From: a virus
Direction: 5' to 3' (one strand)
DNA: 62,716 bases
IMG/VR virus record: IMGVR_UViG_3300044613_003165
Span: 1-62,716 of that record
A program made the translations under genes and the position numbers. Under the pieces are notes generated by a model. That model did not search any database. It was not told the DNA's origin and saw nothing but the letters and a program-made list of their open reading frames with translations. Below, piece by piece: positions 31,969 through 36,351 of this stretch (positions within the stretch are counted from its first letter, which is position 1; each line of letters starts with the position of its first letter).

Positions 31969-32370
31969 ATGGAACATACATGGAAAAAAGGTGAATTAAA
32001 ACAACTAACTAAAAATTTTACTACCAAGGAATTTGAGTGTAAGTGTAAATTAGCAAGTTGTGTAAATCAAAAAATTAGTAAGGAATTGGTTGATAAGATT
32101 CAAAAGGCTAGAGAAGAGTTTGGTAGTTCTTTAATAATTACAAGTGGTTATCGTTGTTTAGAGCATAATACTGCTATCGGTAGCCGTCCTACTAGTCAAC
32201 ACGTTTTAGGTCGAGGTGCTGATTTAACCTGTAAAGACAATGATAAGTTATTTGAAATATTAGAAAAATACTTTTTAGCTATTGGCGATGCTAGGATTAG
32301 TATAGGTAACAGGTCTAACTTTATCCACGTAGATACTCGTTCTGATAAAAAAAGACGTTGGTTATACTAA
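31969..32370 (+). CDS. M15-family peptidoglycan peptidase (endolysin candidate)
   Basis: 133 aa. The M15_3/VanY-like zinc peptidase signature is complete: SGYRCLEHN, SQHVLGRGADLT (His and Asp ligands) and FIHVDTR (HxD with the third ligand). These enzymes cut D-Ala or L-Ala-D-Glu links in peptidoglycan stems. No signal peptide is present, so export would need a holin. It is on the plus strand inside the minus late region with its own TAACAAATA motif, so it is likely the phage endolysin. Confidence 0.8.
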   Translation: MEHTWKKGELKQLTKNFTTKEFECKCKLASCVNQKISKELVDKIQKAREEFGSSLIITSGYRCLEHNTAIGSRPTSQHVLGRGADLTCKDNDKLFEILEKYFLAIGDARISIGNRSNFIHVDTRSDKKRRWLY

Positions 32371-32371
32371 A

Positions 32372-32380
32372 TAACAAATA
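32372..32380 (+). promoter_or_regulatory. TAACAAATA motif (putative late promoter)
   Basis: Exact plus-strand copy directly after the peptidase stop, 21 nt before ATG 32402; AAGGAG follows as ribosome site. Confidence 0.55.
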
Positions 32381-32401
32381 TTTTTAAGGAGTCGCTGTAA
32401 A

Positions 32402-32563
32402 ATGCCTGCTAAAAGTAAAGCTCAGTTTAGGTTTATGAAGGCCGTAGAGTCTGGCTCTTTAAAAGTTCCTGGTTTATCAAAAAAAGAAGCTAAAGAATTT
32501 ACTGAAGAAAATACCGGAAAACGTAAATTTAGTAAATTAAAAGAATACGTAAGGAAAAAATAA
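32402..32563 (+). CDS. DUF3008-like small phage protein
   Basis: 53 aa, basic. Begins MPAKSKAQFRFMKAVESG and continues with SKKEAKEF, the pattern of short phage proteins of the DUF3008 type. Function unknown. A good AAGGAG site precedes it, and its stop overlaps the next start (TAATG). Confidence 0.65.
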   Translation: MPAKSKAQFRFMKAVESGSLKVPGLSKKEAKEFTEENTGKRKFSKLKEYVRKK

Positions 32564-33030
32564 TGGCTATTCCAGTAGTAGTAAAAGGTTTAACTTTTTT
32601 AATTCCCGAAACTAGTGAACGTCGTTGGGGTGATGAAACAACCAACTATTTAGTTACTTTAGGTACTGCGGTTAACGATATTACCTCAGTGGGTGATATT
32701 CCTTTGCTTTCTATTCCTATTAACAATAACCAAACTACCCTTATTAACGTAGATAACCTAAGCTTTGAAACTACTCAGGTTCGTCATGCTATTATTGAAT
32801 ATAGCGTCTATAGGGTCACTAGTAGCGAAGAAGTCAGTCAATGTGGTAATTTACTCATTACTTACAAAAACAACGCAGCTACGTGGGAATTAATTGATAA
32901 TACGGTGGGTGATGCTGGGGTATCCTTTACCATTACTACCGCTGGTCAAGTTCAGTATACTAGCACCAACATGGCCGGTACTGGCTACCAAAGCAAGATG
33001 TCCTTTAGGGCTCGAGCTTTTCCTATTTAA
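32563..33030 (+). CDS. Fibre C-terminal-domain-like protein
   Basis: 155 aa. A short N-terminus (MAIPVVVKGLTFLIPETSE) leads to a beta domain whose end (VSFTITTAGQVQYTSTNMAG, MSFRARAFPI) parallels the C-terminus of tail fibre 1 (FTITSAGQVQYTS). It might be a free receptor-binding or fibre-assembly subunit that moved to the opposite strand. Confidence 0.6.
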   Translation: MAIPVVVKGLTFLIPETSERRWGDETTNYLVTLGTAVNDITSVGDIPLLSIPINNNQTTLINVDNLSFETTQVRHAIIEYSVYRVTSSEEVSQCGNLLITYKNNAATWELIDNTVGDAGVSFTITTAGQVQYTSTNMAGTGYQSKMSFRARAFPI

Positions 33031-33227: not shown

Positions 33228-33267
33228 TAATAAAAAACCCCCCTGATTTCCGAAGAAACCAGAGGGG
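33228..33267 (-). terminator. Rho-independent terminator after the capsid gene
   Basis: On the minus strand: 13-bp stem (CCCCTCTGGTTTC with its partner, two G-U pairs), UUCG tetraloop, then TTTTTTATTA. It stands 28 nt after the major capsid stop codon and should block late read-through toward 33 kb. Confidence 0.85.
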
Positions 33268-33294
33268 TAGTTCGAGCTGTAAAAGCTAATTAAA

Positions 33295-34394
33295 TTAGCT
33301 GTTTACGATGTTCTCGATGAGGACAAGGCGGGCAGGAGCATGACAGAAAAGTGCCATGTCTGCGTACGCTCGTAATTCGACTCCGGCGTTGTTCTCAAGA
33401 TCACGGAAGAACTCTTCGCTCTCGCCAGGACGCTTGAATGTAACTTCGCTTGAACCAACACGCATTAGAACGTCTTCAGGCATGATAAATGCAAGAGACT
33501 CTTTAACGTATGGGTTTGGAACTACTTTGATAAGACCATTCTGTCCGTAGAACTCGATAGCCTTAGCACCTGACTTAGCAAGGTCGGGCTTGTAGCTTGA
33601 GTCATACATACGTAGAGCGTCTTGAGCCTGTAATAGGTTTTCCCAGGTTACAGGGTTAACATGACACTCAACGTCTTCTTCAAGACCTTTAGCAACAGCA
33701 AGAGCTAATGCCTTGTTGATCTTGGATTGTGTAAGAGCAGCAGAACCTGCTGAAAATACAGTTGACTTCCAAAGATCATAGGTAGCAGCGTTGATGTTGA
33801 AAAGTGTACCAGCGTTACGCATGATAGCTTCTAGACCGTGGAATTCAAGAGCGCCTTGTTGGGTGAGTTCACCTGAATAAGCGTGCTTGAGTTGGTCAGT
33901 AGCTACAATAGCAGCTAGTGTTGGTGCAGCAGCGCTGACTGTAATTTGTCGAGCAACTAGATCAACAGCGGTAACTTTTAGTAAAGTAGCAGGACGAGTA
34001 GCGCCACGGATGGCTGTGCCTGCTGCGTCATATGCTTCAAGTTCCATTCCTACTCCACCGGCCCATACTGCGGGTGCCCATGAAGCGGCTGTTACTGTAA
34101 TAACAGATCCAGCTACGCCTGAAACAACACCGATGTTACGCTTGCCGTAAAGCATGATGGTTTCAAGACGCTTAGAGAAAGACTGAACCATGTTAGCAAC
34201 AACTAACTTGGTAGCTCGCTCGAAAGCACCTTTGTCGTTCATAGAACGCATGATTGTACCAGCGCCGATAGCTGTACGAAGTACGAACTCGTAGCTGATT
34301 ACTTTAGCGTCTTTTACTTGACCTGGATTTGGATCTTGAAGATCGAAAGCAGATCCATCAGTACCACCGTATGAGACATTTGTTACCGTAAGGG
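33295..34394 (-). CDS. Major capsid protein, exon 3 (main body)
   Basis: The capsid gene is split as 36351-36299, 35404-35265 and 34394-33295. Joined, the exons give 1293 nt, exactly 431 codons (430 aa) without a stop. Exon 3 opens with SLTVTNVSYGG and continues through an HK97-like body (GAFERATKLVVANMVQSF, AYDAAGTAIRGATRPATL, ending in LRAYADMALFCHAPARLVLIEN cut here). Order after the scaffold gene and a strong terminator behind it fit the most expressed virion gene. A frame starting at 34251 is only the part after an internal ATG. Confidence 0.85.
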
Positions 34395-35264
34395 CTTTTT
34401 ATCCCCTACTTCTTATAGTTTCCTATAAGGTCAGCATATCTTTTCACCCTTTTTTTTTAAAGGGGATGAGGACTCTTGGACCCATTATATTCCATTAATT
34501 TCTTAATGGTTTCAGGATCTATGCGTTGCTCGTGTATTGCTTCTTTAGTTGCAATACTTCCGATCTGATTAGCGTAGTCATTTGCGTATAAAAAAGTGTA
34601 ACCTTTACAAATTTTTCTATTGTGTCGTCTTCTACAAATACTAACAACGTTAGATTTATGAAAACCTTTATCTACTAACTGAAACGCTCTTTCAAAAAAT
34701 GAAACGTCTCCTGTTTTTAGATTTATAGCAACAATAGAGTCTTTACTAAAATGTTTTGATATAGATTCTCTAGTTTCTAAAGAATGATTATTTCCTTTAT
34801 TACCTTTAAATCTACCTTCTTTAATAGCTTTCCTAACTGCTAAGGATATTCTTTTTTTAGCTCTTTCGGTATGGGAAACATTTCCTTTACCGCCGTCTTT
34901 TAAATTATATCCATTAGGATAAAGAGTATTATGCGTTTTTACTAATTCAGCTTCCGCTTTATTTAAACTATCTTCGTCAAAAGCGATAAATAGTTCTTCT
35001 AGTAAAAAAGCATCTCTACCTTTTTTTCTTAGGGCTAGGTCTATATACATTTTAGAGCTTGTTTTCCAGTAATGGTCATTAAAACGTTCGGTAGATGTTC
35101 TAGTTGTTTTACCAACATAAGAAAATCCTGTTTTCTTTTCTATAATTTTATATATAACACCGAATCGTTTCATACTTTTAATATATCACAAAAACTCTTA
35201 GCTTTCCAGTTTTTTTCCTCATTATTTTCCTAGTCAATTACTCGACTAGTGGGCTCTCAATTTA
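34395..35264 (-). other. Group I intron 2 in the capsid gene (870 nt)
   Basis: 5' splice site GGGT^TAAATTGAG at 35265/35264 is nearly the same as in the T4 td intron (GGGT^TAATTGAG). The 3' end is AAAAAG^CCC at 34395/34394. Splicing restores the frame (EHG-S-LTV). The intron carries a GIY-YIG endonuclease gene. Boundaries are inferred from frame, the U before and the G at the end; not tested. Confidence 0.8.
34457..35173 (-). CDS. GIY-YIG homing endonuclease in intron 2
   Basis: 238 aa. GVIYKI ... GFSYVGKTT (about residues 5-22) is the GIY-YIG catalytic start, with NLKDGGKGN and a basic middle (SHTERAKKRISLAVRKAI) typical of NUMOD-type DNA-binding repeats. The C-terminus (VAINLKTGDVSFFERAF, GYTFLYA) matches intron-encoded endonucleases. 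It spreads the intron by cutting intronless capsid genes. Confidence 0.85.
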   Translation of the reverse strand: MKRFGVIYKIIEKKTGFSYVGKTTRTSTERFNDHYWKTSSKMYIDLALRKKGRDAFLLEELFIAFDEDSLNKAEAELVKTHNTLYPNGYNLKDGGKGNVSHTERAKKRISLAVRKAIKEGRFKGNKGNNHSLETRESISKHFSKDSIVAINLKTGDVSFFERAFQLVDKGFHKSNVVSICRRRHNRKICKGYTFLYANDYANQIGSIATKEAIHEQRIDPETIKKLMEYNGSKSPHPL

Positions 35265-35404
35265 ACCCGTGTTCTGATGCTACGATGACTGGTTGATGAT
35301 ACTCTGCTCCAAGCTGCTTATCGCGTGGAACGAAAGGAATCATCTTTAAAAGTTTGACGTGATCTGGGATTAAATTCTCAACAGAATCTCCATAAATTTC
35401 TTTG
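35265..35404 (-). CDS. Major capsid protein, exon 2
   Basis: 140 nt between two introns. Reads KEIYGDSVENLIPDHVKLLK, MIPFVPRDKQLGAEYHQPV and IVASEHG in the frame that joins both neighbours. LFKEIYGD...LIPD is typical of the N-terminal region of phage capsid proteins. Confidence 0.8.
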
Positions 35405-36298
35405 CTAGTAAATAGTTGATTTTACAACTATCTCTTGACTATATCATCAGCTTTAATAGCTGCCTGGGGCTGTAAACAACGTGATTGATAAATTTGCTCA
35501 ATATATCTAAACTTATGTTGCATACTTTTAAAATTTAAAATAAATTCTCTAAGTATTTTCCATAGTTTTAAAGAGTCTTTTTGATTAAATTTAAGAAAAG
35601 GATAGCTTTTACCCTGTTTCTTATTTTTTGCGTAAAGTATTCTAGGCTCTACATCAAAAATATCCTTAAACCATTTAATTAGAATATTTTGAGTCTCTAC
35701 TGTTTGATCGCAAGTAAATATTCTAAGTATTGCTCCGTATAACGCATTTGGGTATCTTTTATCTTGACTTGGTTCTACGTAACCGTCATCCATTAACCAT
35801 ATTGCTAGGGCTAATTCTGGCTGACGTATAAACTTAATTACCTTAGCTAGATCTTTTTTTCTATTAGGGTAAGTAAACTTATACCAAGCTCTAAAACGTT
35901 TCATAGATACTGATATTTGAACTGACTTACCTTTATGGCCTGTTCTCAGTTTAATATCTTTACCTAAACACGTAGATAATAGACTTGCTTTCCAGCTTAA
36001 GTAATCTGATTGGGTTATTCCGTGGTCTAGGTTAAGACTGGCATAACCTCTTTTATCTACATGCAAATTACCATCACCTAAAAGCATCATTAACGCTATA
36101 CTGCGTTTATCTTTATTAAGCATTTTATCTCCTACAGGCTAAAGCCTTCTGGATAATCTGTTATTTTAGTCGATACACCTTTAAGTATTTCTACTTACTC
36201 GGCTAGGTATTGGGTTTTATCCGTCCACCTAATTCTCCAGGTTACGCGGGGTTTACCGCGTCGGGGGTTTCACCCGACCTCTCCAAAGTGGTTACTCC
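35405..36298 (-). other. Group I intron 1 in the capsid gene (894 nt)
   Basis: 5' splice site CTCTT^GGAG at 36299/36298; the exon end GGTCTCTT pairs with GGAGAGGTC about 15 nt into the intron, with a U-G pair at the cut, as in group I P1 helices. The 3' end is ACTAG^CAAAG at 35405/35404. It contains paired GC-rich stems around 36220-36290 and a LAGLIDADG gene. Confidence 0.8.
35428..36123 (-). CDS. LAGLIDADG homing endonuclease in intron 1
   Basis: 231 aa. Two LAGLIDADG helices are visible: ALMMLLGDGNL (about 10-20) and ALAIWLMDDGYV (about 103-114), each with its acidic catalytic residue, so it is a monomeric two-motif enzyme. RBS AGGAG precedes the ATG. The stop is 23 nt from the intron 3' end. 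Confidence 0.85.
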   Translation of the reverse strand: MLNKDKRSIALMMLLGDGNLHVDKRGYASLNLDHGITQSDYLSWKASLLSTCLGKDIKLRTGHKGKSVQISVSMKRFRAWYKFTYPNRKKDLAKVIKFIRQPELALAIWLMDDGYVEPSQDKRYPNALYGAILRIFTCDQTVETQNILIKWFKDIFDVEPRILYAKNKKQGKSYPFLKFNQKDSLKLWKILREFILNFKSMQHKFRYIEQIYQSRCLQPQAAIKADDIVKR

Positions 36299-36351
36299 AA
36301 GAGACCGTTGAGTGTGCTAATTTTATTAGCATTTGCGGCTGAAATTGCCAT
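36299..36351 (-). CDS. Major capsid protein, exon 1 (start)
   Basis: 53 nt from ATG 36351: MAISAANANKISTLNGL plus two bases of the next codon. AAGGAG stands before the ATG. Without splicing the frame stops two codons later, so splicing is needed for a capsid. Confidence 0.8.

Follow-up and report, generated by a model that had tools for sequence, protein, structure and literature searches.

Capsid genes split by introns are already known in phages. In the crAss-like (Zeta group) phage OLRF01000054, as described in PMC7886860, the major capsid gene lies in five fragments; like the locus reported here, it is the capsid gene of a tailed phage recovered from metagenomic data and carries several introns with group I-type endonuclease domains, but it belongs to another phage order and has more introns. 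Mycobacteriophage LittleE likewise has a group I-like intron in its major capsid gene with a LAGLIDADG-type ORF, and its splicing was proven by RT-PCR and N-terminal sequencing; there, however, the intron is single, its ORF lies on the opposite strand and the phage is unrelated (PMC3706429). The Bastillevirinae share with our locus the presence of two or three group I introns per gene, nuclease ORFs overlapping the ribozyme, introns separated by a small exon and, in one case, a LAGLIDADG_2 intron whose enzyme falls into the same PHROG (11023), whereas the interrupted genes are those of DNA polymerase, terminase, thymidylate synthase and ribonucleotide reductase rather than the capsid gene (PMC11878797). 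The searched literature contained no capsid gene with exactly this pairing of a LAGLIDADG_2 with a GIY-YIG enzyme, which is a new combination.

The locus was identified in one uncultured virus record, the whole stretch of which (62,716 bases) is here called the window. Its major capsid gene, coding for an HK97-type head protein, lies on the minus strand in three coding pieces that are split by two group I introns (Table 1). This is almost certainly the result of an invasion by two mobile group I introns, unrelated to each other and predicted to splice and to home by endonuclease cleavage, which entered the gene at two conserved sites near its N-terminus; the phage is an uncultured tailed phage of P22/SU10-like type. 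Gene order on the minus strand is terminase, P22-like portal, an ORF at the usual scaffold position and the split capsid gene. The joined gene matched PHROG 14242, ‘major head protein’, and 23 of the 24 relatives were also assigned to a PHROG ‘major head protein’. When exon 3 was modelled with AlphaFold (mean pLDDT 73.5), the solved structures that matched best in Foldseek were HK97-fold capsids and encapsulins, with TM-scores of 0.23–0.41 that are low partly because the model covers exon 3 only. This relation in sequence and fold to head proteins, together with the place among head genes, assigns the product to the HK97-type capsids. Sequence searches of the PDB with the capsid, LAGLIDADG and GIY-YIG proteins gave no match. 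A search of prokaryote genomes with the capsid yielded no prophage relative, so no host is proposed; a phage of Silvanigrella aquatica is the one capsid relative that has been sequenced. Directly downstream of the capsid gene, the strong terminator-like hairpin faces convergent plus-strand ORFs at 31969-33030, one of which is a Peptidase M15 family member.

Uninterrupted capsid homologues were collected from 32 viral contigs, some of them near-duplicates, and their alignment over 1.2 kb spans both joints. At joint 1, exons 1 and 2 together encode LNGLFKEIY, the string present in the closest homologues and closely resembled in the others. With the 3′ end of intron 2 placed as argued below, the three pieces, all of them open, sum to 53+140+1082 nt, i.e. 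1275 nt or 425 codons, and encode 424 aa; intron 1 is inserted inside codon 18 (LNGL^F) and intron 2 inside codon 65 (EHG^F). Much of the original prediction, which had been made from the letters alone, is borne out by these data, namely a capsid gene in three minus-strand pieces with two group I introns of two enzyme classes, the exact limits of exons 1 and 2, and the loss of the N-terminus in plain gene calling, whose ATG-started ORF begins at 34251 and encodes 318 aa, so that the N-terminus is lost.

Table 1. Features of the split capsid gene in the window (minus-strand elements are described 5′ to 3′)
Feature	Coordinates	Strand	Details
Capsid exon 1	36299..36351	-	53 nt, ends ...GGTCTCTT; placed by homologue alignment at LNGLFKEIY and by P1 pairing
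Intron 1, group I	35405..36298	-	894 nt, last base G
Intron 1 internal guide	36275..36288	-	CUUUG (P10, 36288-36284), then directly P1 strand GAGAGGUCG (36283-36275)
Intron 1 P3 5′ strand CUGGA	36236..36240	-	predicted to pair with UCCAG 36153-36149, from one sequence
Intron 1 P4 strands	36205..36230	-	AGGU (36230-36227) and ACCU (36208-36205); from alignment and pair counts
Intron 1 P7 5′ strand GACUA	36167..36171	-	pairs with UAGUC 35441-35437, in register
LAGLIDADG_2 homing endonuclease ORF	35428..36123	-	231 aa, between P3′ and P7′, last codons overlap P7′
Intron 1 J8/7-P7′ motif GAUAUAGUC	35437..35445	-	overlaps LAGLIDADG ORF end
Capsid exon 2	35265..35404	-	140 nt, first bases CAAAG, last bases CACGGGT
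Intron 2, group I (3′ end corrected)	34377..35264	-	888 nt, ends ...ACAAATG
Intron 2 internal guide	35251..35259	-	UGAGA (P10), then directly GCCC (P1)
Intron 2 P3 5′ strand UGAGGA	35216..35221	-	pairs with UCCUCA 34472-34467; covaries in relatives
Intron 2 P7 5′ strand GCAUA	34520..34524	-	pairs with UAUGC 34438-34434
GIY-YIG homing endonuclease ORF	34457..35173	-	238 aa, inside intron 2
Intron 2 P9.1 helix	34388..34409	-	contains the originally predicted splice site 34395|34394; conserved in 19 introns
Capsid exon 3 (start corrected)	33295..34376	-	1082 nt; PHROG 14242 major head protein, HK97-type fold matches
Terminator-like hairpin	33237..33268	-	directly 3′ of capsid gene

In intron 1, a 9-bp P1 and a 5-bp P10 (CAAAG/CUUUG) are contiguous and define both intron ends, and their combined score was reached by none of 20000 shuffled intron starts; the U-G pair that had been predicted for this P1 was found at its end, and likewise in intron 2. 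Downstream of the guide, the core elements P3-P4-P5-P6-P7-P3′-P8-P7′ follow in order, which, with the P1/P10 guide and the terminal G, identifies intron 1 as group I. The encoded enzyme is a LAGLIDADG_2 protein (Pfam PF03161, E=1.8e-18, positions 2-167 of 168, no stops; PHROG 11023) with its LLGDG and MDDG motifs intact and conserved. Direct searches revealed no close relative of this enzyme, and the wider family was reached only through an alignment with crAss-phage homologues, which retrieved 127 loci, 80 of which were kept. Many of these 80 lie inside introns in which AAUU-P4 ... AAU-P4′-AGCCAAG ... GACUA precedes the ORF and GAUAUAGUC lies at the ORF end or beyond it. The core string AAUU-P4-P5-AAU-P4′-AGCCgAG-P6-GGUGUA-GACUA ... 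GAUAUAGUC of intron 1 is common to 29 phage LAGLIDADG_2 introns with the same kind of ORF position. Across 23 cores of this type, P4-P6 was paired in 92.4% of cells and 10 of 12 pairs were changed on both sides (0/500 shuffles); P4 and P6 covary, while P5 is a weak helix (71%) that in intron 1 itself comprises two pairs only. The 5′ part of the intron folds only modestly better than shuffles (z=-1.6), and a DNA search with it gave only short matches at chance level. As a side observation, the LAGLIDADG_2 ORFs of many uncultured phages (L076-L155) sit inside canonical group I introns, and the association of the two in phages looks commoner than a 2014 review (PMC3984707) suggests.

Intron 2, with its 3′ end corrected, has a 4-bp P1 ending in a U-G pair and a 5-bp P10. 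Its enzyme belongs to the GIY-YIG family (Pfam PF01541, E=4.8e-7, positions 2-78 of 78, frame intact; PHROG 314, E=2e-28), and the 3′ part of the ORF doubles as the ribozyme core, covering P6, P7, P7.1, P7.2 and P3′; as the ORF ends in P8, its final portion is both enzyme-coding sequence and ribozyme core. When viral contigs were scanned for the P9 hairpin of intron 2, 27 contigs were retrieved, and 18 more introns could be aligned with P7 and the 3′ end in register; P9 was the search motif and so provides no evidence by itself. In the resulting 19 introns, 97.1% of the cells of the 3′ half (P7, P7.1, P7.2, P8, P9, P9.1) were paired and 22 of 34 pairs were changed on both sides, a value reached in 0/500 shuffles, with slid controls at 30-45%. 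P3 pairs across the ORF, with UGAGGA/UCCUCA, UGGUGA/UCACCA and CGAAGU/ACUUCG as covariants, and the same core occurs without an ORF in L051 and L052. By its P1/P10 guide, terminal G and covarying, pseudoknotted P3-P7 core, intron 2 is a group I intron. The start of intron 2 had been likened to the T4 td intron, but a search with its 3′ half does not point to td as the nearest kin: of the DNA matches in sequenced phages, the closest were in those of Enterocloster, Clostridioides, Staphylococcus and Streptococcus. At the sequence level, covariation is thus strong for intron 2, and the assignment of intron 1 draws on shared architecture and the covariation of P4 and P6.

A match to Rfam RF00028 is an aid to recognition and not a mechanistic criterion. 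In an Rfam search of the window, no family, RF00028 included, came within E=5 on the correct strand of the intron region, and no group I match was obtained at the gathering threshold in the relatives. The ORF-less intron B of L012 likewise goes undetected with this library, so the absent match is weak evidence against group I introns. Available models have been reported to overlook introns in phages, frequently to one side of the ORF (PMC11878797).

Five other contigs of the clade (L010, L011, L012, L034 and L040) also have split capsid genes, with all splits within the first 66 codons, and in each of them the joined exons encode a continuous capsid N-terminus. L010:1833-3789 contains three group I introns (837, 199 and 885 nt) separated by exons of 23 and 13 nt, and L011 is near-identical. 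In L012:2715-3770, two group I introns flank a 12-nt exon (CTAGAACACGGT), the first six bases of which lie in P10 of the upstream intron and the last six in P1 of the downstream one. L034:2570-4028 has a single capsid intron of 1459 nt that encodes a GIY-YIG (NUMOD-like) and a LAGLIDADG_2 enzyme on either side of one group I core, and L040 has one capsid intron, with GIY-YIG. With these contigs, one of which unites both enzyme classes in one intron, and with the five-piece capsid gene of PMC7886860, the description of such an arrangement as uncommon was overstated. L010 and L012 each have a homologue of intron 2, inserted at practically the same position of the gene, with GIY-YIG enzymes 53% and 39% identical to that of intron 2, respectively. 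The GIY-YIG ORF of the homologue at L012:3001-3654 has an internal TAA and looks decayed, and that of L010 stops early (TAG) within the P7.2 hairpin. In seven introns of relatives, P10 had at least 3 bp in five and P1 at least 5 bp in all. The relatives share the capsid family with the present genome but differ in having as many as three introns, other insertion sites and exons of 12, 13 and 23 nt; no intron was seen at the codon-18 site in any other capsid gene.

In the mechanism that we propose, each intron would form a ribozyme, pair through its internal guide with the exons on either side and excise itself to leave a continuous 424-aa capsid message; each homing endonuclease would be expected to cut the intronless allele of a co-infecting phage, whose repair would copy the intron in. 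What the sequences show are the continuous homologous gene, the guide pairings and the covarying core helices; splicing in vivo, cleavage activity and homing are predicted. The introns might instead be degenerate, with the capsid gene broken or poorly spliced and the variant defective, a reading in favour of which stand the decayed endonuclease ORFs of the relatives L012 and L010. Here, however, both introns retain their core helices and guide pairings, the two endonuclease ORFs and the three exons are open, and head genes flank the capsid gene in the usual order, making this reading very unlikely.

Still less probable is the end of intron 2 at 34395 in the original prediction, which gave exon 3 1100 nt and the gene 431 codons (a capsid of 430 aa). 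That junction is in frame, creates no stop and leaves G as the final intron base, and the joined protein is continuous with its homologues through joint 1. At joint 2, however, the homologues read EHG-(I/V)-TYGG, EGG-VSYGG or similar, overall E(H/G)G-(I/V/F)-(S/T)Y, whereas the 34395 end produces EHG-SLTVTN-VSYGG, whose six additional residues are absent from every uninterrupted homologue and all relatives; the protein is continuous only from 34376. Nine in-frame candidates ending in G were compared, and only G34377|T34376, 18 nt further downstream, has a P10 of more than one pair, namely 5 bp (UCUCA/UGAGA) contiguous with the P1 strand GCCC, and its product, EHG-F-SYGG, is homologue-like. Shuffled intron starts reached the P1+P10 score of this corrected version in 0.7% of cases and that of the earlier one in 47%. 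The L010 and L012 introns resemble intron 2 in sequence up to position 34377 exactly and end at the homologous base, and P10 at this site has 7 bp in each of them with other letters (UAAGAUA/UAUCUUA and AAGUAAU/AUUACUU). Moreover, the first part of an exon 3 starting after 34395 would be the 3′ strand of the P9.1 helix, which is conserved in 19/19 introns. The least probable alternative, that the tandem introns are retained for an additional functional capsid protein made by exon skipping, as reported for Twort orf142 and the SIOphi terminase, has a documented precedent in tandem group I introns (PMC11878797) but was rejected, since exon 1 joined to exon 3 is out of frame (53+1082 = 1135 nt) and the skipped product nonsense.

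With invasion by two mobile introns as the preferred reading, the distribution of splits in the relatives raises a further proposal, to which we give an even chance: the first 66 codons of the clade's capsid gene may form a hot spot for introns, with five or more insertion sites close together, in which exons can be so short (12 nt in L012) that every base pairs in P10 or P1, and neighbouring ribozymes would compete for the few exon letters, constraining the order of splicing. The case illustrates how a major structural gene is deprived of its N-terminus in automatic annotation; corrected boundaries are given here. Together, this genome and its relatives form a natural series with zero, one, two and three introns, both enzyme classes and exons down to 12 nt, which serves the question of how group I introns come to accumulate in a single gene that is conserved and highly expressed.
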